A stretch of 64,000 bases of DNA from Vulcanimicrobiota bacterium. Its GTDB lineage: Bacteria; Vulcanimicrobiota; Xenobia; Xenobiales; JADMJV01. Of this stretch, positions 4,285-16,629 are shown piece after piece (position 1 is the first letter of the stretch; every line of letters starts with the position of its first letter). The stretch lies in NCBI GenBank assembly GCA_019637395.1, contig JAHBVR010000009.1, forward strand, positions 124,001 to 188,000. Direction: 5' to 3'. The position numbers and the translations under genes were made by a program. Under the pieces are notes generated by a model that made no database searches, was not told where the DNA came from, and was given only the letters and a program-made list of their open reading frames with translations.

Positions 4285-5487
4285 ATGACACGTCAAGCCA
4301 ATCTGGGCCTGTTGACCCTGGCCCTTTCTTTCATCGCCCTGGGAACGGTGGGACCGTTTGCGTTGATCCTGTTGGGCGTCTTGTTCGCACTGCTCGGTGC
4401 TGGCGGCGGACAAGCCATGGGAGCGGCCATGGCCAGCATGATGGCCATGGTCTTCATCATTTGGATTCTGCTGATCCTGGCTTTTGTCGGACAGATCATG
4501 TGCTTCTTCACCCCCCTCTCCCAGGAAACCAAGACGAAACTGGGCGTCTGCATGGGACTGAGTCTGTTGCAGTTGGTGATGGGCGGTGGAATCGTCGGAT
4601 CCATCATGAGTCTGGTGGGACTGCTCGCTTACCTGGCGTTCCTCTACGGGCTGTGCCAGGACCTGGAAGCGCCTGAACTGGCGAGTCGCTTCAATTCCGC
4701 CGCCGGCTTCGGATTGATCTCCCTGGTCAGCTGTATCATGGCGCCGTTTTCGGCCTTCTTATCCCCCGGACTGGTGCTGATTTTCCTCATCAGCGCCTTC
4801 CTTTTCGGAGCTCTGGCCTTCGCCCGCTACGCTCAGACCATCGTCTCGCTGGCTCAGCGGGCCAACCAGTTGCGCCTGCAGGGCATCGACCTCAACCCCG
4901 GGGAACTCTCCGGACCCGGCTTCAGCCGATTCGAAGAAGAAGTTCCGGCCAAACCGGCTCGGCCTCCCTTTCACATGGAATGGTGCGGACTGATTCAACT
5001 TCCACCCGATCTTTCCGGCCCGCATGAAGCCACCCGGGTGGGCGACACCGAAAAAGTAGCCGCCATGCTACGCCCGGGCCAAGCCGATCTGAAAGGGCCC
5101 AACGGAATGACGCCTTTGCACGTGGCCGCCATCTCGGGGGTTATGCAAGTAGCCGACATGCTCTTGAAAAAGGGCGCCAACGTGGACGCACCTTGCGACG
5201 GCGGGCTGACCGCACTGTACTTTGCCATCCAGAACAACAATAACAACATGGTCGGACTGCTCTTGATGCGTGGAGCCAGCCTGTCCACCCGTAACGAGCA
5301 AGGGCGGACTCCGCTACACTGGGCCTGCGCCGTGGCCAGCGACCGGTTGGAAGGCCAGGCGCGCGTCCGCATGGTGCAGATGCTGCTCAGTAAAGGAGCG
5401 GATCCGCAAGCCCAAGACAACGACGGCTGCACGCCAGCCCAGTTAGCCGAAAAGGCCGGCCACCACGAGGTAGCGGCGGCTCTCTAA
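4285..5487 (+). CDS. Membrane protein with C-terminal ankyrin repeats
   Basis: The product has 400 residues in two parts. Residues about 1-190 are very hydrophobic, with four or five likely membrane spans containing small-residue runs (GAGGGQAMGAAMASM). Residues about 240-400 form three to four ankyrin repeats, recognised by NGMTPLHVAAISG, ADMLLKKGANVDAP, GRTPLHWACAV and MLLSKGADPQAQ. The layout suggests a membrane anchor presenting a cytoplasmic protein-binding scaffold. The partner is unknown. The gene converges on rodA and its TAA overlaps rodA's stop codon, so no terminator fits between them. Confidence 0.85.
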   Translation: MTRQANLGLLTLALSFIALGTVGPFALILLGVLFALLGAGGGQAMGAAMASMMAMVFIIWILLILAFVGQIMCFFTPLSQETKTKLGVCMGLSLLQLVMGGGIVGSIMSLVGLLAYLAFLYGLCQDLEAPELASRFNSAAGFGLISLVSCIMAPFSAFLSPGLVLIFLISAFLFGALAFARYAQTIVSLAQRANQLRLQGIDLNPGELSGPGFSRFEEEVPAKPARPPFHMEWCGLIQLPPDLSGPHEATRVGDTEKVAAMLRPGQADLKGPNGMTPLHVAAISGVMQVADMLLKKGANVDAPCDGGLTALYFAIQNNNNNMVGLLLMRGASLSTRNEQGRTPLHWACAVASDRLEGQARVRMVQMLLSKGADPQAQDNDGCTPAQLAEKAGHHEVAAAL

Positions 5488-6578
5488 TCGAGCGCCTCGG
5501 GTTCGGTCTTCTTCAGCAGGTCTTGTAACTTGGGCACCGTGTCGTCGGCCTGGGCCGCTCCCATGATCAGGCCGATACCGGCCAGATTGATGAGCATGGC
5601 GCTGCCGCCATAGGTACAGAAGGGGAGCGGAATGCCCACCACCGGGGCCAGTCCCACCGTCATGCTGAGGTTTACCAGGCCCTGAAAGCCCAACAGGGTG
5701 CATACGCCACTGCACACCAGGGACTCATAACGGTCGCGACAGGTCCAACTGACTCGCAGCAGTTGCACCGCCAGTAAGGCCCCCAGAGCCAACAGGCCCC
5801 AGGCCCCAAACAGGCCTAACTCCTCACCGATGACGGAAAAGACGAAGTCGGTCCAGTTCTCGGGCACGAAGCCGTTCTGGCTGAGTGCTCCCTGGCCCAG
5901 GCCTTGCCCAACCCAACCCCCGGACCCTATCGCGAGCTGAGACTGGGTAATATGGTAACCCAGGCCGCGCGGGTCGGTCTCGGGATGCAAAAAAATCAAC
6001 AGCCGATTCTTCTGATAATCGTGGAGCACGAAAGGGGCCAGCGCGGCCCCTCCACCGATCAGAGCGAAAAGACCCAGGGAGGGAGCGCCGGCCACCCAGC
6101 TCATGCCGACAAAAATGGCTCCCAACACCAGAGCTGTGCCCAGGTCCGGCTGCTTGGCAATCAAGGCGAAGAGGAGTCCGGTACAGGCCCCGGCGCTCAG
6201 GAATGCCTTCCAGCCGGGTGTGCGCCCTTGATAAACGCGAGCCAAGATCAAAATCAAAGCCAGCTTGGCAAACTCCGAGGGTTGCCAGTTGCCTAAAGGT
6301 CCCAGAGCCAGCCAACGTTGCGAGCCATTGACGGTCTGACCGATGCCCGGTAAGAGCACCAGCAGCAAGGCCGCGGCCGAGGCGAAATAGTAGGGCACGG
6401 CCAGCGGGCGGACGGCCAGGGGACGGCTGCGGGAACACAAACCCAGCAAAGCCAGCCCAATGATGATGTGGCCGAGCTGGCGCGAGCCTTCGCCGGCCCA
6501 GCCGGCCGACGACCAGACGGCCAGCCAGCCCACCGTGAGCAGCCCCAGCAAAGAGCAAACGACGGCGCGCGGGCTCAT
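5484..6578 (-). CDS. rodA: Rod-shape glycosyltransferase RodA (SEDS family)
   Basis: RodA is the SEDS polymerase that extends glycan strands in the elongasome with PBP2. The 364-residue product has about ten membrane segments. Family signatures are ANGSQRW-like VNGSQRWLALG, QPSEFAKLA, KQPDLGTALVL, PRGLGYHITQSQLAIGSGG and TDFVFSVIGEELGLFG. The ATG at 6578 is chosen because it overlaps the stop of mrdA (ATGA). The longer upstream frame lies inside mrdA. It is the last gene of the mre operon, and its stop overlaps the converging ankyrin gene. Confidence 0.95.
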   Translation of the reverse strand: MSPRAVVCSLLGLLTVGWLAVWSSAGWAGEGSRQLGHIIIGLALLGLCSRSRPLAVRPLAVPYYFASAAALLLVLLPGIGQTVNGSQRWLALGPLGNWQPSEFAKLALILILARVYQGRTPGWKAFLSAGACTGLLFALIAKQPDLGTALVLGAIFVGMSWVAGAPSLGLFALIGGGAALAPFVLHDYQKNRLLIFLHPETDPRGLGYHITQSQLAIGSGGWVGQGLGQGALSQNGFVPENWTDFVFSVIGEELGLFGAWGLLALGALLAVQLLRVSWTCRDRYESLVCSGVCTLLGFQGLVNLSMTVGLAPVVGIPLPFCTYGGSAMLINLAGIGLIMGAAQADDTVPKLQDLLKKTEPEALD

Positions 6579-8419
6579 CGGACCCCCCTGCTCGGGGCAT
6601 ACAAGTAGTCGTATATTTTGCGTGCCACCGGGGCACAGCGGCCACCACCGTAACCGCCCGACTTCTCGCACATGACCACCACCACAATCTCGGGATGCTC
6701 ATAGGGAGCGAAGGAAACGAACCAGGTGTGATTGCGCCCGTGCACATTCTCGCTGTTGGGCATATTCTCCACCGTGCCGGTCTTGCCGGCTACATGCACA
6801 TACTCCGAGTTACAGGCGCCGCCCGTGCCATAGAGTACCGCGCCGCGCATGCCCTGACGCACGGCCGCCCACAGATTGGGCGGCAATTTGAGCCGGCGCA
6901 CCGGTTTGAAGCCGGGCCGGGCCATCACCCGTCCCTGGTAGGAAACGACTTGCCGCACCAGGTGGGGTTGAACGATCTTGCCACCGTTGGCCACCGCCGC
7001 GGTCACCACCGCCATCTGGATGGGAGTAACCAGCAAGAATCCCTGGCCGATGGAAAAGTTGACGGTGTCGCCTTCGTACCATTTGTCGCCGACATACTTC
7101 CACTTCCAGTCGGGCGTCGGGCAAATTCCCTCGGACTCTCCCGGCAAGTCAATACCGGTCGTGTGACCCAGGCCCATACTCCGGGCATGCTTGGATAAGC
7201 GTTCCACGCCCAGTTTGACACCCAGCATGTAGTAGACCACATCGCACGAATGAGCCAGCGAGCCCTCAAACCCGATCGAGCCATGCCCCGAGGTTACAAA
7301 GCAGTTGGCCCCCGCGTAGCTGCCCCCGCAGTAGAAAACCGAGCCGGCCGAGCACAGACCATGACGGAGGGCGGCGCTGCTGGTGACCAACTTGTAAGTG
7401 GAGCCAGGCGAGGCAATGGTCTGGATGGCGCGATGCAGCAGCGGCAGCCCCCGCTGGTTGAGCAATTGGGTGTATTCTTTCTGCGTGATGCCGCGGGCAA
7501 AAGGCCGCGGATCATACTGGGGCAAGCTCACCAGCGCCCGGACGGCGCCGGTCTGCGCTTCCATGACCACCACCGAGCCGCCGGAAAATTCCTGATTCTC
7601 TTTGCGCAGCTCATCCAGCATTTCTTGCAGCGAATTTTCGGCCACCTTCTGCAGCTCCCAGTCCAGAGCCAGGTGCAAATCGCAACCCGGTTTGGGCGGA
7701 CGCACTTCGGTGGTTTTAACGGTGCGCCCCAACGCATCAATGGAAATCTTCGAGACCCCTTTATAACCCTTTAACCAGCCGTCGTAGGTGCGCTCCAGGC
7801 CTTCTTTACCGATACGGTCCAGGCTCATGTAGCCTTTGGGACGCAACGCCTTGAGCTCTTCGGCGGTGATTTCACCCATGTAGCCCAGGCTGTGGGTAGC
7901 GTGCAGGCCGGCGGCAAAGCGGCGGCGTTCGCGGATCACCAGACGCAAGCCCTTGAACTGGGGCAACAGCTTGGTGCTGGCCACCACCTGGGGCGTGGTG
8001 AGCGCCCGGGCAAACACAAAGGGCTCCAGCGGCCCGGCCTTCAAGGCCTTCTCAAGGCGTGCCTTGAGTTTGTGCGGGGCCTGACCGGTGGCCGCAGCCA
8101 ACCACTGCAGATGCTTCCGATCGTGGGGAACCTCGAAGGGAATACCCTCCAACTGAAAATCCGGCTCGTTGGTCACCAGCAGTTTACCGTGACGGTCCCA
8201 GATACGCCCGCGTGGGGCGGTTTTGTATTCGGTGAAGACCGAATTAGACTGAGCCTTGTGCAGCAACGCACGGTGCCGCAGCACTTGCAACTGATAAAAG
8301 CGGCCGCCCAGGATGAGCATGACCAGGCTACCCAGGGCGGCCAGGCTCATCAGGCGCCTGCGACCGCCGACTCCCAGACCGGTTTCTTCCGCCCCCCCAG
8401 GCCCCCCCATTTTCACCAT
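6575..8419 (-). CDS. mrdA: Penicillin-binding protein 2, elongasome transpeptidase
   Basis: This enzyme crosslinks peptidoglycan for cell elongation and is RodA's partner. The product has 614 residues. There is one N-terminal membrane anchor (about 22-44), a pedestal beginning TAPRGRIWDRHG (67-78), and a transpeptidase domain. Active-site motifs are SxxK at S340-K343 (SPGSTYK), SxD at 391-393 (SCD, as the SxD form in E. coli PBP2) and KTGT at 546-549. The ATG at 8419 overlaps the end of mreD by 7 bases. A far longer open frame exists upstream but lies inside mreD. Confidence 0.95.
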   Translation of the reverse strand: MVKMGGPGGAEETGLGVGGRRRLMSLAALGSLVMLILGGRFYQLQVLRHRALLHKAQSNSVFTEYKTAPRGRIWDRHGKLLVTNEPDFQLEGIPFEVPHDRKHLQWLAAATGQAPHKLKARLEKALKAGPLEPFVFARALTTPQVVASTKLLPQFKGLRLVIRERRRFAAGLHATHSLGYMGEITAEELKALRPKGYMSLDRIGKEGLERTYDGWLKGYKGVSKISIDALGRTVKTTEVRPPKPGCDLHLALDWELQKVAENSLQEMLDELRKENQEFSGGSVVVMEAQTGAVRALVSLPQYDPRPFARGITQKEYTQLLNQRGLPLLHRAIQTIASPGSTYKLVTSSAALRHGLCSAGSVFYCGGSYAGANCFVTSGHGSIGFEGSLAHSCDVVYYMLGVKLGVERLSKHARSMGLGHTTGIDLPGESEGICPTPDWKWKYVGDKWYEGDTVNFSIGQGFLLVTPIQMAVVTAAVANGGKIVQPHLVRQVVSYQGRVMARPGFKPVRRLKLPPNLWAAVRQGMRGAVLYGTGGACNSEYVHVAGKTGTVENMPNSENVHGRNHTWFVSFAPYEHPEIVVVVMCEKSGGYGGGRCAPVARKIYDYLYAPSRGVR

Positions 8420-8850
8420 TCTCGCCAGGGAAAGAGAAAGCTCGCCACCCAGAAGAGGCCGGCACTGAGCAGAGCAAAGCTCCACCAGGTAACCAATAAG
8501 GTCTGGCCGATCATCCAGGGACTGTAGCCGCTCAAGAGCAACTGCAGGGTCAGAGCCAGAGCGCTCAGCACCCCGCCCAGCACCAGCCGCTGGCTGGGGC
8601 TGAGCACCGGACGGCGCTCCACCACGTAGCCGGCCAGACAACCCACCAGCAAGGGGGGGAGCAGCATGCTGGGCAGCATAGCCCCGCAGGGCACCGAGCC
8701 CCACAAACCGGCCCAGCAGCCGGTCAGACTGGCGCCGGTCAAACCGTAGCGCCAGGCCGCCAGCAGCACCAGGCCGAGACTGAGGGCCGCGTAATGCGCT
8801 GAACAGAAGATGGCCAGCAGGGGAAAAGCGAGGGTCAACAGTCCGCTCAC
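8413..8850 (-). CDS. mreD: MreD-like rod-shape membrane protein
   Basis: The product is a very hydrophobic protein of 145 residues with about five membrane segments. Sequence identity to MreD is not obvious by eye, since the family is poorly conserved. The call rests on length, hydrophobicity and its exact position between mreC and the PBP2 gene. It contains a GxLxGxxAGLxG-like run (TGASLTGCWAGLWG) resembling the MreD/ECF transporter-like fold. It overlaps both neighbours (4 and 7 bases), which implies translational coupling. Confidence 0.8.
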   Translation of the reverse strand: MSGLLTLAFPLLAIFCSAHYAALSLGLVLLAAWRYGLTGASLTGCWAGLWGSVPCGAMLPSMLLPPLLVGCLAGYVVERRPVLSPSQRLVLGGVLSALALTLQLLLSGYSPWMIGQTLLVTWWSFALLSAGLFWVASFLFPWREW

Positions 8851-10703
8851 GGCAGCACCATGACCTCGGAGACGTCATCCAGTTTTACGTAAGGGATAAT
8901 CTGGGCTGACCAAAAGCTGGTCTCGTTACTACGGTGGACTTGCCGCACGGTGCCGATAGGCAGGCCCCGCGGAAACTGTCCGTCTTGACCACTGGTCACC
9001 ACCGGGTCCCCATCTTTGACGCCGGCGTCAGGATCGATGTAGTTCATGGTCATGACTCCGATGCCCTTACCCTCAATCACACCGCCCGCTTTGCGATTGG
9101 CGATCAGACCGTGCAGCTTGGAGGAGGGGCTCAGACAAAGACTGACGCGACAAGAGTGGTCATCGACCTGCACCACTCTTCCCAAAAGCCCTTGTTCGGC
9201 CATAACCAGGTTGCCGCGCTTGATACCCTCCGCGCTGCCCACATTCAAACGAACTCCCGAGAGCCACTGATGGGGATCTCGTCCCACCACCCGGGCCAGC
9301 GTGCCGCCTTCCAGGCCTCTAAGATTCATCTCGCGTTTGGCCAGCCACCGCCACAGACGCTGATTTTCCGAACGCAGACGCTGCATCTGGCGCTTTTCTT
9401 CTTGGTTGAGAGTGCGGCTGGCGGCCGGTTGTTTTTGGCCGCTGGCCAGGCCGGCGTTCAGCGCCGCGCTGAATCCGCCGAACCAGGGGTCTGGACCGCC
9501 CAGACCCATAGCGTTGGCCGAGGCGGCCGAGACAAACAGGCTGATGGCCATCAAAGCCGCGGCCGCGCTCCAGCCCAGGGAGGTTCGCTGCATTACCAGG
9601 TTTTTGGGAGCAAAGTCGTCCTTGGGCTTGGGCAACTGCGAAAAGAGGGCTTTGCGCAGCACCGGCGACTTGAGGATCAACTGCAGACCCTTGGAGGTGC
9701 AGTCGCCCGGCTTTTCCGGCTGGCATACCGTCAGTCCGGTGGACTGGCGTAAAGCCTGCGAGAAGCCGTAGAGCAGGGTGCTGCCGCCGGTCAGATGGAT
9801 ACCCTGCTCCTGGATGTCATCCACCCAGGCCACCGGAATCTCCGCCAGAAACTGGCGGGCCAGGTGCACCCACTGGGCGTGGAACGGCTCGACGATCGGC
9901 CACAGCTCGTTGGCCCGCAGAGTGACGCGCAGGGGCGCTCCGCTCTCCAGATGACGTCCACTTACGGGCAGTTCGCTTTCCGAGCTGCATTGGGCCAGCT
10001 CGATTTTGAGGCGTTCCGCGTCCTGGCGATGGATCAGCAACTGATAGGTGCGCCGCACATACTCCTGGATGGACTCGTCCACCTGGCCGCCGGCCAGTTC
10101 TCCGCGGCGTACGGCCAGGCACGAACCCAGAGCAATGACGCCGACTTCGCAACGGCCCGCGCCGATGTGCAAAACCATGTGGCAGCGCGGCCGCAGCACA
10201 TCCAGGCCGGCACCGATGGCCGAGGCCAGCAGTTCGCTGGTGAGAGCGATTTGGCGGGCCCCCACGCTGCGCCCCAGGGCTTCCCAGGTTTCGCGCTCCA
10301 GAGCGGTGGGGTCGGCCCCCACCGCCAGCAACAGGCGTGGCGCCGTGCCCCAGTGGCCGCGCTTGAGAGCTTGCTCGAGCAACAATTTGGCGCCGTGCGG
10401 ATCGTGCACCGCCCCGCCTTTCATAGGCTGGAAGATCGAGACGCCTTCCGGCTCCTTGCCTTCCAGGTCGCGCGCCCCCTCGCCCAGAGCCACGCAGCGC
10501 TGGCGATGATTGAAGGCCAGCAGAGCCGGGAAGGCCTGAGCCTTGCTCATACCGGTGACGGAAACCTGGGATCCACCCACGGAGACGGCCGCATCGAAGC
10601 CAGGAGCTTCCAGCCAGGTGCGCACACCCGCCCAGGAAAATCGCTGGCTCCAACTGGGAGTGACCGTTAAGCCCCTTCCCTCCATGCTCTCACTGTACAG
10701 CAT
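8847..10703 (-). CDS. MreB-like actin domain fused to MreC
   Basis: This is one continuous 618-residue reading frame. Residues about 36-345 are actin-like: QPMKGG (92-97) matches the MreB RPMKDG segment, SAIGAGL (161-167) matches AAAIGAGL, then LHIGAGRCEVGVIALG, YVRRTYQLLI and the adenosine motif HLTGG (303-307). Residues 374-398 form a membrane span. Residues 430-460 are coiled-coil. Residues 470-617 are a MreC beta domain (VNVGSxxGIxxG-like segment, then TSGQDGQFPRGLPIGTV). MreB and MreC are normally separate proteins on the two sides of this membrane step. In the actin part, the phosphate-1 Asp is Ser (VSVGG) and the phosphate-2 Asp is His, so ATPase activity is doubtful. The Glu at 157 that corresponds to the catalytic Glu is present. 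GGAAGG-type sequence precedes the ATG. Confidence 0.9.
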   Translation of the reverse strand: MLYSESMEGRGLTVTPSWSQRFSWAGVRTWLEAPGFDAAVSVGGSQVSVTGMSKAQAFPALLAFNHRQRCVALGEGARDLEGKEPEGVSIFQPMKGGAVHDPHGAKLLLEQALKRGHWGTAPRLLLAVGADPTALERETWEALGRSVGARQIALTSELLASAIGAGLDVLRPRCHMVLHIGAGRCEVGVIALGSCLAVRRGELAGGQVDESIQEYVRRTYQLLIHRQDAERLKIELAQCSSESELPVSGRHLESGAPLRVTLRANELWPIVEPFHAQWVHLARQFLAEIPVAWVDDIQEQGIHLTGGSTLLYGFSQALRQSTGLTVCQPEKPGDCTSKGLQLILKSPVLRKALFSQLPKPKDDFAPKNLVMQRTSLGWSAAAALMAISLFVSAASANAMGLGGPDPWFGGFSAALNAGLASGQKQPAASRTLNQEEKRQMQRLRSENQRLWRWLAKREMNLRGLEGGTLARVVGRDPHQWLSGVRLNVGSAEGIKRGNLVMAEQGLLGRVVQVDDHSCRVSLCLSPSSKLHGLIANRKAGGVIEGKGIGVMTMNYIDPDAGVKDGDPVVTSGQDGQFPRGLPIGTVRQVHRSNETSFWSAQIIPYVKLDDVSEVMVLP

Positions 10704-10760
10704 ACTTTGGTTCCTTCCTTGTGTTCCAGGGAGGACTGACGCGTCTCCCCCGGGCCCCCA

Positions 10761-11723
10761 CTACGGCTCTAAGGCGAGCTCGGATCGAATCCGTAGCGCC
10801 CCTAGAACTCCACATTCGATTGGTCGCGGGGATCGCTGCACGGGCAGATCCACCTGCTCCTTGAGATAGGCTTCCAGGCCTTGCAAATAGGCCGCCCCGC
10901 CGGTGAGCATCAGGCCCTGCTGCAAAACGGATTCGGCCAGCAAAGGCGGCATTTGATCGAGCACACTGCGAATCAGTTCGAGCAGCCGTTGCAGAGGTTC
11001 GAGCAGCGACTGACCGAGCGAATTCATGGGCACGTCGCGATAGATGGGCAGGCCACTGGTCAGTTCGCGGCCGCGCACCTCCAGACTCTGGTCCGGCCAG
11101 TGCTCGGCCCAGCAGCTAGTCTGGTGCTTGAGCAGGCGGGCGGTGGCCTGGCTGACTTCCAGCCCGTGCTCCTGGTAAAGACAGCGCTGCAGGGCGACTT
11201 CCAGATCGTCGCCGCCCCAGCGAATGGAGCGGCGCAGTACTACGTCGGCGGCCACCAGAGCCATTTCACTGGTGGTGGCGCCAATGTCGACCACGGCCAC
11301 GGCCGGCTCGCCGGAGGTGCTGCCCCAGGCCACCGCCACCGGCATCTGCACGATGCGAGTATTCAGAAAGCCAAGATCTTTGAGCAACTCAGCCCACTGT
11401 TTGCGTTCCAGCGGGGAGGCCACGCTGGGCAATACCAGCCGCGCCGACGGTCGCGACCAGGCACGCATTCCCTGACGGCGCAGCATCTGGCGCAGTTGCT
11501 CCTGAACTGCCCCGGGGGCAGCCAGATGAGCCTGGGAAACCGGTTGAAACACCTGGATCCTATCAGGAGCTCTTTGCATGATAGGGACGGCCACCTGGCC
11601 CACGGCCACGGCCTGGGGCAAACTCCAGCAGTTGGCCACCAGCGAGGGTTCACAGAGAACCTCGCCCTTGCCGGCCACGGCCACTCGGGTTTGATATGAT
11701 CCTACGTCTAAGGCGATCAGCAT
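10761..11723 (-). CDS. mreB: Divergent MreB-like actin homologue
   Basis: The product has 320 residues and heads the shape operon. Actin-fold motifs are phosphate-1 ALDVGSYQTRVAV (Asp6 kept), phosphate-2 VVDIGATTSEMAL (Asp146 kept), the RWGGDDLE segment and the adenosine motif LTGGAAYLQG. The catalytic-Glu segment, normally EEPMAAAIGAG, reads VQMPVAVAWGS, so the Glu is lost. It lacks the usual MreB membrane-loop conservation and is far from the canonical sequence, somewhere between MreB and PilM/FtsA-like actins. Start 11723 has an excellent AGGAGG six bases upstream. An earlier ATG 30 bases before has none. The gap to the fusion gene is 57 bases. Confidence 0.85.
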   Translation of the reverse strand: MLIALDVGSYQTRVAVAGKGEVLCEPSLVANCWSLPQAVAVGQVAVPIMQRAPDRIQVFQPVSQAHLAAPGAVQEQLRQMLRRQGMRAWSRPSARLVLPSVASPLERKQWAELLKDLGFLNTRIVQMPVAVAWGSTSGEPAVAVVDIGATTSEMALVAADVVLRRSIRWGGDDLEVALQRCLYQEHGLEVSQATARLLKHQTSCWAEHWPDQSLEVRGRELTSGLPIYRDVPMNSLGQSLLEPLQRLLELIRSVLDQMPPLLAESVLQQGLMLTGGAAYLQGLEAYLKEQVDLPVQRSPRPIECGVLGALRIRSELALEP

Positions 11724-11876: not shown

Positions 11877-12311
11877 TCACCCCGAAAGGCTCTCCAACTT
11901 CAAAATTGCCCGGCGCAGATCATCGGGAATGGGCGCGCTTTTGCCGGCGGCGTAGTCATAGAAGACGGATACCGAACTGCCTTTGGCCACATAGTCCTGT
12001 TGCTGATGGCTGTAGATGCGGTAGAGCTGGACAAAACTGCTTGTGCCCAGCCTGGAGATACCGATCTCCGTGCGAATCCGGTCCGGGTAGTGGATGGGCT
12101 TGAGGAAATCGCACTGGGTGCTGGCCAGAATCGGTCCGAAACCGTGACCCTCCGGCTCGGGAAAGTGCAGCCCTAAACGCTCGAACTGAGCGATGCGCGC
12201 GTTCTCGAAATAACGGAAGTAAATGGTATTATTGACGTGTCCGAGTTTATCTTGCTCCCCCCAGGCAACTGCTTGCTCGAGTCGAACCGGGTATTGGGTC
12301 TCAAACTCCAA
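11877..12311 (-). CDS. Hotdog-fold acyl-CoA thioesterase (4HBT/YbgC-like)
   Basis: The product has 144 residues of the 4-hydroxybenzoyl-CoA thioesterase family, which hydrolyses acyl-CoA thioesters. The family active-site segment is WGEQDKLGHVNNTIYFRYFENAR, cited here by its core DKLGHVNN with Asp at the expected position. The start is TTG, inside the end of the GHKL ATPase gene (11-base overlap), with AGGAAG upstream. It is probably the last gene of the 17.7-11.9 kb operon. The 153 bases to mreB contain no convincing terminator. YbgC-type proteins sit with the Tol-Pal system in proteobacteria, but there is no such neighbour here. Confidence 0.85.
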   Translation of the reverse strand: MEFETQYPVRLEQAVAWGEQDKLGHVNNTIYFRYFENARIAQFERLGLHFPEPEGHGFGPILASTQCDFLKPIHYPDRIRTEIGISRLGTSSFVQLYRIYSHQQQDYVAKGSSVSVFYDYAAGKSAPIPDDLRRAILKLESLSG

Positions 12312-13905
12312 CTTCGTCTTCTTCCTGCAGGTAGGCTTCCAGCAGCTTGGTGCAAGTCTTCTCGTCGATCCCGTCGTCGCTGACGATGGCCGAAGCCAGC
12401 AGATAGGGCGCTTCCTTACGGAATTCCGGCTTCAGGCGAAAATGCGGCTCGATCAAGGGATCGGCCACATTTAAAATGACGGTAGTGTTCTTGTTCCAAC
12501 CAAAGAAACGCTCAAAAATGCCCTTGGGGGCAATCTTGTCGAAGCGAATCACCTCATCGGGCTTGTCGCAGGCCAGGTAGAGGCGGTCGTGGACGGTGGA
12601 GTTGGGGTAGTTGAAATTGCCGGCCACCACCTTACGGTAGGGGCTGCCAGCCCGGTGCAGGATGCGCATGGCCGCCTGAATCATTTTTTCTTGAGATTCG
12701 GGCAACGCGGTCAGTAACGTGGGACTGGCGTAAACTTCGTTGGCACGAGTCATGGGCGCGTTGCCTTTGAGCTTGTCGAGCAACGTGCCCAGGCCCTTGT
12801 CTTTCTCGGGATTCCAGCGAATCACCAGGCGGCCGTCGTCGACCAGGCGCTGCACTACAGCGTTGGTATTCTCTTCATAAAGCAACTCTTTATGGCGCTT
12901 GACCTCGGCCTTGAGTTCACGAATGCTGGCCTTGCGGGGTCCCAAAGTAGGAATGATCTGCTGGTTTTCCAGTTCGGGCGGCAGCTTGGCCACGTGAAAA
13001 GCCAGATAGCCCATGGTCTCGTCGTCGGTATGAGCCTGGGCGGCGGCAAAAAGCGCCGGACGCAGCTTCTTCTCGACGCACTCCTTGAGCAAAGCCATGG
13101 CTTTATCGTAATTCTTGTCCTTGATAATGTTGTCGCGGGTCAGCGTGTGCTCCAGATAGCGGGAGCGAATCTTGAAGCTGACCCCGGGAATGATCACATC
13201 TTCCGCCTCAAAGAGAGTCAGGCCGCGATTGTAGAAACCATAGAAAGGGCGATCCGAACCGCTGGGAGCGGCTGAAATATAGGTTCCCTGACCCTCCAGA
13301 TTGACGGCCAGCTTGTGGGGCAGGTCGAACTGCTCGTTGATCAGCTCTCCATCCACATAGACTTCCGCCTCGGCGTGCTTACACCACTTCTTCAGAGTTT
13401 TACGCGACTCTTCCCGATAATTCTCATTCTCTTTGGGAGTCAGTTCCTTGATCCACTTGATCTGAGTGCCTTCCACCGGTCGGGGCAACACCAGGCGGTC
13501 AAAAGTGCGATCCTCTTTAAAGTAGATGCGCCAGTATTCGCCGTCCTTACCAGTATCCACAAAGACCGCCTTGGGTTTCAAGGCGAAGATGGACACAAAA
13601 CCGATGCCGAACTTGCCGATCTTGGTGAAATCGTCTTCCTTGGAGGACGAGAACAAACGGGTCAACTTGGTGTCGATGACTTCGCGCGTCATACCCTCGC
13701 CGGTGTCGTTGATGTGCAGCACGAAGACGCCCTTTTCGTTGTCCTTGTTGGGCGTGTACTCAAAATCGATGTCCACCCGCCCCGACCCGGCGTCGATGCT
13801 GTTTTGCACCAGTTCGCGCAAGAAGGCGAACTGGTCGGAGAATTGTTGGACAAGATTGTCCAGGGTGTCGCCGGCTTCAATGGCAATGTTCGGATCGCTG
13901 GCCAT
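12301..13905 (-). CDS. GHKL (Hsp90-like) ATPase of unknown function
   Basis: The product has 534 residues. The N-terminal 200 residues are a GHKL ATP-binding domain as in Hsp90, MutL and MORC: N-box ELVQNSIDA (31-39), G1 box NDTGEGM (66-72) and G2 box GKFGIGF (97-103). Like Hsp90, a middle domain follows. It lacks the C-terminal MEEVD or HtpG dimerisation signatures I would look for, and it is about 90 residues shorter than HtpG. A region near 300-420 (LPPELENQ, LKAEVKRHKELLYEE) is partly coiled-coil. The start is supported by AGGAGAG inside the end of the AAA+ gene, one base apart. It belongs to a five-gene operon and its job is unknown. Confidence 0.85.
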   Translation of the reverse strand: MASDPNIAIEAGDTLDNLVQQFSDQFAFLRELVQNSIDAGSGRVDIDFEYTPNKDNEKGVFVLHINDTGEGMTREVIDTKLTRLFSSSKEDDFTKIGKFGIGFVSIFALKPKAVFVDTGKDGEYWRIYFKEDRTFDRLVLPRPVEGTQIKWIKELTPKENENYREESRKTLKKWCKHAEAEVYVDGELINEQFDLPHKLAVNLEGQGTYISAAPSGSDRPFYGFYNRGLTLFEAEDVIIPGVSFKIRSRYLEHTLTRDNIIKDKNYDKAMALLKECVEKKLRPALFAAAQAHTDDETMGYLAFHVAKLPPELENQQIIPTLGPRKASIRELKAEVKRHKELLYEENTNAVVQRLVDDGRLVIRWNPEKDKGLGTLLDKLKGNAPMTRANEVYASPTLLTALPESQEKMIQAAMRILHRAGSPYRKVVAGNFNYPNSTVHDRLYLACDKPDEVIRFDKIAPKGIFERFFGWNKNTTVILNVADPLIEPHFRLKPEFRKEAPYLLASAIVSDDGIDEKTCTKLLEAYLQEEDEVGV

Positions 13906-13906
13906 T

Positions 13907-15565
13907 CTACTTCTCTCCTAAAGTTTGTAGCGCCGCCTTCTGGGCGGACAGATTGAGCACAATTTCCTTGACGCGGGTCTGGAACTGGTCCGCCTGATTT
14001 TGCTCCTCGGCGGCCATTTCAAACTCGCTGAACCGTTTCATCATGTCGCGAATATCCTGATAGGTCATGGGCTTGGCCAGCTCGCGCAGAATGCGCTGGC
14101 GTTCGGCAAAGCCCACCTGGTAGTATTCCGGCGGCGGCTCCACGTCCTGGACGCGGGTCAGAATATTTTGGCAAATAGCCTCCACATTGCGCCCCGAAAA
14201 CTCCGAATCGATGCACAACCGCCCGATCTTGAGCCACTCTTCATCGCTTAGCTTGAGCATGTCGATGAAGTCTTTGAGCTTCTTGTCACGCATCAACTCC
14301 ACAAAATCCTCGGCGCTATTGGGCCCCTTGATTTTGTGGGGGTCCTGGGAAATGCGGGACAAGGTGGCTTCGTCCATGTTCATGTAGTTGGCGTCGCACA
14401 TCAGGAACCACTTACCGTTCTTGGGGATGAGCGTGCCGTCAAAGATACCGAAGCTGGCTCCGAGAATGTTGGACTCTTCCGAGCGCATGCCCGGGTCGCT
14501 ACGGGCCGCAAAAGCGGTGTCGATATCGGGCCAGTAGACTCCCACCACGCCGTTGAAGCCGTGTACCTGCTCTTTGAAAATCTTGATCAACTGGGTAGCG
14601 CTGGCGTTCTGGAAGGAAGAAGCCCAGTCGGTGCGCCGAATCACCAGGAAGCGCGCCGCCACCCCACGATCCTTGCAATACTTGAGGAAATAGTTACCAA
14701 TGGCATGAGCGGTAATGGTCTTGCCGCAACCGGGCGAGCCTTGTCCAAAGAGCACCGGATTGAGCTTCTTGGGGTTGCGCCCCACCTCGAAGTCGTAACC
14801 GGCCACGTCGCGGGCCAGGCGCAGGCCGGCGGCCAGATACTCCTGATTGCCGACCACGTCCTCGGGCCAGACCGGTAGCAGTTCGGCCGGTTCTTCTTCC
14901 TTGGCGGTGGTGGAAGGCTCCAGGCCTCGATAACCGCGCCCGCACACTTCCACCGGCAGCTTCTCGAGGGCGCGCCGGTGGCGCTCAAATTCTACGTCCT
15001 CAACCTGGCTCTTGACCGCATTGCCTTTCAGTTGAAAGAAAGCCGAGGCCACTTCCAGCAACTGGTCGGGCGCGGTGATACTACGGGCGGGGTCGGGATG
15101 ATGCTTGTGAAAGTCCAAAAAGGACGTGAGCTCTTGCAAGCAAGTCTGCATCAGGGTATTGCCCTCGTAGTCGCGGATCTGCTTGACCCAGGGTGACTTC
15201 ATCGAGCCCCGCACTTCGGGGGCCTTGCCCAGATGGGTTACGCAACTGGCGGTGGCGTGCTCGGCCGCGATGTAGGCGGCATAAAGATTGCAGAAAGACC
15301 AGTCGATGGGGTCCAGGTTGTTTTTAAAGCCAAAACCGGAACTGTCGCGATCGGCCGCGATGCGATGGGACAGGGCTTTCTGAATTTCCAAAATGAGGGA
15401 GCCATAGCGCTCCATAATGTCGAGCAAATTGAGATGCTGATGGGTATAGCCATAGGGCCCGCTGACCAGGCTGGCGAGACGTTCCGGCACCATGCTGTTC
15501 TTGAGCAGCGAGCGAACGATGGGGAATTCTTGCTGGAGGTCTTCATCGGTAATGGTAAGGTTCAT
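13907..15565 (-). CDS. AAA+ ATPase of unknown function
   Basis: The product has 552 residues. An unrecognised helical N-terminal region (1-230) precedes an AAA+ core: Walker A GQGSPGCGKT (274-283), Walker B-like VVGVYWPDID (340-349) and a sensor 1 segment WFLMCDAN (386-393) followed by LSRI (402-405). The Walker B acidic pair is atypical (DID rather than DE). The gene starts on TGATG, sharing one base with the upstream stop, so it is translationally coupled. It was likely co-evolved with the GHKL ATPase that follows one base later. Substrate and partner are unknown. Confidence 0.85.
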   Translation of the reverse strand: MNLTITDEDLQQEFPIVRSLLKNSMVPERLASLVSGPYGYTHQHLNLLDIMERYGSLILEIQKALSHRIAADRDSSGFGFKNNLDPIDWSFCNLYAAYIAAEHATASCVTHLGKAPEVRGSMKSPWVKQIRDYEGNTLMQTCLQELTSFLDFHKHHPDPARSITAPDQLLEVASAFFQLKGNAVKSQVEDVEFERHRRALEKLPVEVCGRGYRGLEPSTTAKEEEPAELLPVWPEDVVGNQEYLAAGLRLARDVAGYDFEVGRNPKKLNPVLFGQGSPGCGKTITAHAIGNYFLKYCKDRGVAARFLVIRRTDWASSFQNASATQLIKIFKEQVHGFNGVVGVYWPDIDTAFAARSDPGMRSEESNILGASFGIFDGTLIPKNGKWFLMCDANYMNMDEATLSRISQDPHKIKGPNSAEDFVELMRDKKLKDFIDMLKLSDEEWLKIGRLCIDSEFSGRNVEAICQNILTRVQDVEPPPEYYQVGFAERQRILRELAKPMTYQDIRDMMKRFSEFEMAAEEQNQADQFQTRVKEIVLNLSAQKAALQTLGEK

Positions 15566-16629
15566 CAGATAGTATACACAATACAGCGCGCGTTGCGCTC
15601 GGCCAGGAGTTGTTGAAAAGGCTGGGCGATGGCTTTGGTGACACAGAACTTACGTTCTTTGAAAACGCGATAGCCCAATTTTTCGGCTCTTTCCAGAGCG
15701 AACTGCCTGGCATCCCCTTCGACGGTGTTGCGATAGAGCCGGGAAAAGGGGTCCGCCTGCAGGTCTTCTTTGGCGCTCGAGTTGATGACCACCCGTTCCA
15801 GCGGAAAGTTCAGGATGAAGTTGCCCGGATTTTGCTCCAGCAACTGGCGAACCTCGTCCGGCATGGTATCGGCTTCTTTGAACCAGAGAGGACCTACCCG
15901 TCCGCGCACGACTTCCTCCACCTTGATGCCCGGCACCTCGGAGAGCAAGATGAAGGCAAACTCGGCTTCGTCGGAATGGTAGCGGGAAATCACGTTACGG
16001 AAAGCCTCGGTGGCTTTCAAATCATCGCCCTGCATCTCGATCTGAGCTTTGTTCCAGCGCGAATCCTGATGTTGCAGCGTGATGGTGTAGCGCGTGAAAA
16101 CACCCTCGCCCGGGTCGTAGCGTTCGAAGATCGAGTAAAAAGAGGCCGTCTTGGTGACCAGATCGATCTTGCGCAGCTTCAACTCGTGGTGAATGCGCTT
16201 GGGCAAATCGCTTTTGTGGACGTCCCGCAGATACTGCAGGCGCCGGTGCAATTTGAAGGAGGCCTCGTCGGTGCGTGAATTGACCTCGGCCGTGTCGTTG
16301 CGAGCCAGAAAGCGGGGGGCCGCTTCCTTGTCGGCCAGCACTCGCCCGATATCCGGCTCAGACGGCAATCCGCAGCGAGGATTGATGCGGATCTCCGGGT
16401 CGATCCCCAGGTTACCGCTGGGAGACATGAGCCGATACAGATTATCCAGCCCGTTGGGATTGGGATAAAACTGATTGAGGCGCCCGCCTTTGATCAGCCT
16501 GCGCAAGAAATCCAAAAACTGATCGGCGTCCGCATCCCGCAACAGGATACGATACTGGGTGGGGTCAACGCCGTGGGTCAGAACTGGTTCGGGACGTTCA
16601 CGCTCATATTCAGGGGCGGGAATAGCCAT
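15565..16629 (-). CDS. Hypothetical protein in the two-ATPase operon
   Basis: The product has 354 residues and matches no family I recognise. It is a charged, soluble protein without a signal peptide or membrane segment. Notable stretches are DPTQYRILLRDADADQFLDF near the N-terminus and RYTITLQHQDSRW in the middle, compatible with an alpha/beta or beta-rich fold. Its start (TAATG) overlaps the stop of the coiled-coil gene, and its stop (TGATG) overlaps the start of the AAA+ gene. A stoichiometric complex of the operon's products is therefore plausible. Confidence 0.8.
   Translation of the reverse strand: MAIPAPEYERERPEPVLTHGVDPTQYRILLRDADADQFLDFLRRLIKGGRLNQFYPNPNGLDNLYRLMSPSGNLGIDPEIRINPRCGLPSEPDIGRVLADKEAAPRFLARNDTAEVNSRTDEASFKLHRRLQYLRDVHKSDLPKRIHHELKLRKIDLVTKTASFYSIFERYDPGEGVFTRYTITLQHQDSRWNKAQIEMQGDDLKATEAFRNVISRYHSDEAEFAFILLSEVPGIKVEEVVRGRVGPLWFKEADTMPDEVRQLLEQNPGNFILNFPLERVVINSSAKEDLQADPFSRLYRNTVEGDARQFALERAEKLGYRVFKERKFCVTKAIAQPFQQLLAERNARCIVYTI

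Follow-up and report, generated by a model that had tools for sequence, protein, structure and literature searches.

A conserved MreB–MreC fusion encoded with a second MreB in an elongasome operon of Vulcanimicrobiota

The fused operon and the architecture of its central protein

The window, by which we mean the whole 64,000-nucleotide stretch analysed here (G000:C36:124001-188000), belongs to a 7.66-Mb genome in 36 contigs that was searched together with its relatives. Its minus strand encodes, in order, a separate MreB (the partner), an MreB–MreC fusion, an MreD-like protein, PBP2 (mrdA), and RodA. The features are as follows.

10761–11723, minus strand: partner MreB, 320 residues, both phosphate-loop aspartates present, Met in place of the catalytic Glu (Pfam MreB_Mbl, E 7.6e-57; start and ribosome-binding site; motif table)
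8847–10703, minus strand: MreB–MreC fusion gene, 618 residues (open frame; Pfam MreB_Mbl and MreC; Shine-Dalgarno sequence)
9666–10595, minus strand: actin-like MreB domain of the fusion, residues about 37–346, whose phosphate loops are degenerate, the first Asp being Ser and the second His (Pfam; AlphaFold2 pLDDT mostly 75–90; Z 37.8 to 4czj_A; motif table)
9522–9578, minus strand: single transmembrane helix of the fusion, residues 376–394, cytoplasm to periplasm by domain order (hydropathy 1.77; model helix 378–395)
9321–9404, minus strand: MreC helical or coiled-coil segment, residues 434–461 (model helix 434–461; NCBIfam MreC models begin at about residue 427–434)
8853–9290, minus strand: MreC periplasmic β barrel, residues 472–617 (Pfam PF04085; Foldseek match to MreC 6zlv_A)
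8413–8850, minus strand: MreD-like polytopic membrane protein, 145 residues (position; four to six predicted membrane helices)
6575–8419, minus strand: PBP2 (mrdA), with a start near 8419 that is not exactly fixed (above the cut-off of NCBIfam TIGR03423 pbp2_mrdA)
5484–6578, minus strand: RodA (Pfam FTSW_RODA_SPOVE, E 3.6e-79; best NCBIfam match rodA_shape; start by comparison with a relative)

The fusion gene is a single uninterrupted frame running from the ATG at 10703 to the stop at 8847, and a good Shine-Dalgarno match, AAGGAAGG, precedes it at about 10711–10720; the plus strand of the same interval is not a coding frame. The likely start of the partner is the ATG at 11723, behind a clear ribosome-binding site (AGGAGG). 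Downstream, the MreD-like gene overlaps the stop codon of the fusion by 4 nucleotides. Its name rests on position because the protein has no Pfam MreD match; a low-confidence model (mean pLDDT 59) contains six helices and finds no PDB match at E 0.001. With mreD thus named, the order mreB-mreC-mreD-mrdA-rodA given in a preliminary description of this DNA holds on the minus strand. Upstream of the operon, a 4HBT thioesterase, an HSP90/sacsin-like GHKL ATPase, and an AAA ATPase lie in a row (window 11877–16629, minus strand); this block adjoins the fused operon in three congeners and is absent from the stretch of G004 that was read.

A Pfam scan with hmmscan assigned residues 58–346 of the fusion to MreB_Mbl (PF06723; E 1.4e-57, 195 bits against a cut-off of 27) and residues 472–617 to the MreC barrel core (PF04085; E 2e-38, 132 bits against a cut-off of 28), with no family beyond these two. 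Between them lies one hydrophobic helix. An AlphaFold2 model built on an alignment of eight fusions contains the actin fold, a beta-rich barrel (pLDDT mostly about 77–87), and, between these, the transmembrane helix and the long helix at 434–461; its linkers are of low confidence, and at a pTM of 0.53 the placement of the two halves relative to each other is not meaningful. The model superposes on Caulobacter MreB (4czj_A) over 307 residues and matches the MreC structure 6zlv_A with a Foldseek TM score of 0.82 of the target. As expected of MreC, a single transmembrane helix is followed by a coiled coil, but in place of the short cytoplasmic N terminus of a separate gene product the same frame holds a 375-residue, actin-containing region. 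We regard the two-domain architecture as near certain. Family matches, hydropathy, and the model together show a chain composed of a predicted cytoplasmic actin fold, one predicted membrane crossing, and a complete periplasmic MreC coiled coil and barrel. The preliminary description, which did not give the strand, had read an MreB domain, a membrane span, and MreC in one uninterrupted frame, and had proposed structure prediction as a check; both the frame and the two-domain match in one chain are borne out.

The N-terminal sequence MLY(S/N/T)ESME (window 10680–10703, minus strand) is common to the fusions of the window genus and of G005, a genome of another genus in the same family, though these are only 36% identical overall, and may be a short binding motif. 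An amphipathic N-terminal helix was also considered; the signal is weak, the best 11-mer ranking no higher than the top 6% among windows of the same protein.

A fused gene might nevertheless supply separate working proteins, if MreC were freed by proteolysis after the transmembrane helix or translated from an internal start at Met370. In the window genus Met370 does stand immediately before the helix, and the small residues that follow it, SAASANAMG, resemble a signal-peptidase site. However, no Shine-Dalgarno sequence precedes codon 370, Met370 is missing from the G005 fusion and from the second copies described below, and an internal start leaves unexplained the retention of the full fusion in nine copies. 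We rejected the internal start, which has no ribosome-binding site and is not conserved, and consider separate products as a whole improbable.

Distribution, selection, and origin of the fusion

We scanned 84,980 species genomes with peptide patterns derived from this lineage, which would miss independent fusions. Among 149 genomes of the phylum, the fusion is present in nine copies in seven (G000–G006), all from one order of Eremiobacterota, a phylum for which the present NCBI name is Vulcanimicrobiota. The named records that carry it are metagenome-assembled genomes or bins of Candidatus Eremiobacterota or of unplaced bacteria, for example JALHOV01, JAFKGI01, JADMJV01, JAFEBA01 (SZAS-1), and JASBRJ01. 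All nine copies follow a separate MreB and precede PBP2, and RodA comes next wherever the contig reaches. Four congeneric genomes contain the whole frame at 82–93% identity and G005 contains it at 36%, and in all five the junction is free of stops and indels. G001 and G002 each encode a second, divergent fused copy (about 29% identity) in a second operon that has its own partner MreB, fusion, PBP2, and RodA (L027:3467-9547 and L028:2953-8999, respectively); Pfam detects both the MreB and the MreC domain in each divergent fused chain. No such second operon was found in the window genome. G006 represents a second family within the order; its fusion (L033:6435-8203) has the last part of MreB in frame with the entire MreC, and the frame changes within the MreB half, not at the junction. 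This draft copy, the only one of the nine that is interrupted, may reflect an assembly error or decay; the second mreB-mreC pair of the same genome is unfused.

Selection was assessed from pairwise dN/dS among the congeners, which is 0.024–0.060 for the fused MreB domain, 0.043–0.179 for the linker and transmembrane helix across the junction, 0.065–0.102 for the MreC part, and 0.046–0.084 for the partner MreB. Purifying selection on the linker and on the two domains is strong, and the chain, including its junction, is maintained as a protein. A sequencing or assembly artefact joining two genes has next to no probability: the G006 draft does contain a frame change, though away from the junction, whereas eight uninterrupted copies from several independent assemblies extend down to about 28% identity and selection acts over the junction itself. 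Because the homologues are conserved and uninterrupted and the junction is under purifying selection, we take the fusion to be real. The missing stop or frame error at 9580–9760 that the preliminary description had raised is excluded by these eight homologues, and the homologues at this spot, which could have proved to be split genes, are consistently fused in the same lineage.

Within the phylum, 138 of 149 genomes have a recognisable MreC, and no fusion was found in the 142 genomes other than G000–G006. Long MreC frames, as in G047, G119, G106, G029, G146, G092, G105, and others, were examined as candidate independent fusions and none is joined to MreB; the adjoining mreB, where it falls within the stretch, is in a different frame. 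An apparent 693-residue frame in G020 likewise does not join MreB and MreC. The MreC frame of G007 (L068:1083-2582) spans 500 codons with the barrel at residues 63–246, possibly reflecting a long C-terminal extension.

Trees of either half show a single origin of the fusion. One clade (98/94) unites all nine fused MreB halves, a second (99/97) unites the nine partner MreBs, and these two clades are sisters (87/83); the MreC halves also form one clade (98/91). These trees include some long branches, and the placement of G005 and G006 was marked as a possible long-branch effect. This clade pattern points to one MreB duplication and one fusion event. Since mreB lies directly before mreC in many unfused relatives, the fusion probably arose by the joining of neighbours. 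Duplication of the fused operon appears to predate the divergence of the two families.

Nucleotide-site residues of the two MreBs

In MreB, three acidic side chains, one Asp in each of phosphate loops 1 and 2 and the catalytic Glu, coordinate the Mg ion via water, and the attacking water is positioned by that Glu and a Thr (PMC9195046, PMC4051119). We read the corresponding positions, in Escherichia coli numbering D16 (loop 1), D165 (loop 2), E143 (catalytic Glu), and T170 (Thr), in all nine fusions and their partners. Every fusion has lost the Asp at D16 (Ser in seven, Cys in one, Leu in one) and carries His at D165; T170 is occupied by Arg (five), Ser (two), Val (one), or Thr (one), and E143 by Glu (five) or Gln (four). 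The window fusion, with Ser, His, Glu, and Arg at D16, D165, E143, and T170, lacks the full set of MreB Mg-ATP site residues. The partners keep D16 in 9/9 and D165 in 8/9 (Val in G006), and none retains the catalytic Glu, which is replaced by Met in five, Arg in two, Lys in one, and Thr in one. In the rest of the phylum, canonical MreBs have all four residues intact. Where an unfused MreB is linked to mreC in the phylum, for example L044 (G010) and L058 (G033), it commonly has Gln for the catalytic Glu, as in actin, and the same genomes encode a separate MreB elsewhere that keeps the Glu.

Because both Mg-coordinating aspartates are lost, the fused half is predicted not to bind Mg-ATP and hydrolyse it by the usual MreB mechanism; it is a homologue of MreB but probably a pseudo-ATPase, not an MreB-type ATPase. 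The partner, in which the aspartates are retained and the catalytic Glu is lost, probably binds ATP without hydrolysing it. These residues bear on a suggestion of the preliminary description. That one actin unit is fixed to every MreC holds as far as the covalent chain goes, but a working actin unit is unlikely with the phosphate-loop aspartates gone. Nor has a fused form simply taken the place of MreB: the operon keeps a separate MreB directly upstream and is a two-MreB system with one MreB fused to MreC.

One reading of this reciprocal pattern, which we offer tentatively, is a two-component actin with its site residues split between subunits, the free MreB having the aspartates and not the Glu and the anchored MreB having Glu or Gln and not the aspartates. 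The two would form a mixed, non-hydrolysing filament joined to MreC that replaces RodZ and, in some genomes, is the only elongasome actin.

Filament formation is also touched by a longitudinal-contact position. The S283D variant of Caulobacter MreB is monomeric (PMC4051119), and at the equivalent S284 position the window-genus fusion has Asp and its partner Glu. These acidic residues argue against ordinary filaments, which may not form in the window genus. The fused actin half could then be a docking or scaffold pseudo-actin that recruits the partner MreB, or the cytoplasmic tails of PBP2 and RodA, one to one and without polymers. The acidic residues in both window-genus MreBs fit such a role, as does very strong purifying selection on a domain that has nonetheless lost its nucleotide-site residues; moreover, E. 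coli MreB directly contacts the cytoplasmic region of PBP2 and the RodA tail (PMC13327600). Yet the partner retains its phosphate-loop aspartates, as in polymer-forming actin, the acidic residue is missing from the fusions of G005 and G006 and from the second-copy fusions, and the hydrophobic character of V121 is kept, as Leu, in the window-genus fusion. On balance we consider a purely scaffolding actin half doubtful.

A proposed lineage-specific elongasome

Outside the fused operon, the window genome encodes two further divergent MreBs and a second MreC. A second mreB-mreC-PBP2 locus (G000:C7:187604-189255, L035) is not fused and has diverged strongly (its MreC branch is about 2 long), and its MreB site is degenerate, with LELGHQLM at phosphate loop 2. 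A lone MreB paralogue (G000:C33:240714-241661, L036) groups with the canonical MreBs of the phylum and carries the altered motifs ALELGSS, VEAPLC, and MDWGGGGL; it may be a decayed or specialised descendant of an ordinary MreB. No MreB of this genome has an intact site.

Such loci raise the prospect that the fused operon is a paralogous, accessory or differentiation-specific elongasome, used for an appendage or a specialised cell, with ordinary elongation left to another mre locus. Genomes of the window genus do have another mreB-mreC-PBP2 locus and a further MreB, and two genomes have the second fused operon. Against this, among the mre loci read in the window genome PBP2 and RodA occur together only in the fused operon, and its other MreBs are at least as degenerate. 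The G005 genome, 97% complete, encodes no MreB other than the partner and the fusion, and no MreC other than the fused one was found there; this favours a fused machine that can act as the main elongasome. The fused system may be an accessory one in the window genus; for the lineage as a whole we rate an accessory role as rather unlikely.

RodZ_C was detected in 25 of 58 sampled genomes of the phylum and in no genome of the fusion order, the window genome included; the weak HTH_25 matches examined in the order belong to other helix-turn-helix proteins, none of them RodZ-like. Since relatives in the same order that lack the fusion also have no detectable RodZ, absence does not track the fusion, and the fusion cannot be called the cause of RodZ loss.

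Our preferred reading, to which we assign a probability of about 0.5, is a lineage-specific elongasome in which MreB was duplicated, one copy was fused once to MreC, and the two MreBs then specialised, with the partner assembling with the fused subunits. A duplicated MreB would have been joined once, in frame, to the adjoining MreC. We infer that partner and fused half meet, because they are always encoded together and form sister clades, and the partner would assemble on, or together with, membrane-anchored fused subunits. MreC in other bacteria activates PBP2-RodA (review, PMC13327600), and each contact between partner and fusion would place one MreC beside that pair. The fusion would thereby provide a built-in tie, doing work done elsewhere by RodZ and membrane-binding MreB, and the fused system would undergo little or no ATP-driven disassembly.

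Each part of the system has known relatives. The fusion resembles MreB (PF06723; 4czj, 1jcg) in fold over residues 35–356 (Z about 38, E 1e-57) but differs in that both Mg aspartates and usually the catalytic Thr are replaced, and in being joined to MreC with no free C terminus. It resembles MreC (PF04085; 6zlv, 2j5u, 9dvb) in its complete transmembrane helix, coiled coil, and barrel and in its operon place before MreD-like, PBP2, and RodA, whereas it has a whole actin domain where MreC has a short cytoplasmic tail. RodZ, which binds MreB via a cytoplasmic helix-turn-helix domain, would do the same job, linking MreB across the membrane to the machinery in the periplasm; in the fusion, which contains neither HTH_25 nor RodZ_C, the link is covalent. 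Spiroplasma, with its divergent paralogues MreB1–5, is alike in that a single genome encodes several specialised forms of MreB. It lacks a cell wall and is not known to have MreC, and we know of no Spiroplasma MreB fused to a membrane protein. The preliminary description knew of no such fusion in model bacteria, and the open-access full-text journal literature searched gave no precedent for a natural or engineered MreB–MreC fusion. The component families are known; their joining in one chain, the complementary loss of nucleotide-site residues in the two MreBs, and an operon with two MreBs are undescribed as far as tested.

Vulcanimicrobium, the first member of the phylum to be cultivated and one that is placed in another class, forms Gram-negative rods or filaments (PMC9758169). 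The fused system bears on two open questions, namely how MreB filaments couple to wall synthases via RodZ and MreC and whether MreB needs to hydrolyse ATP. Here, evolution has hard-wired the MreB–MreC contact in a machine under strong selection, with catalytic residues gone from both MreBs. It would offer a natural single-chain MreB–MreC for structural work, and in G005 the fused system seems to be the sole elongasome actin. The lineage would also provide a natural experiment on whether wall growth requires MreB dynamics driven by ATP and a free MreB–membrane link.
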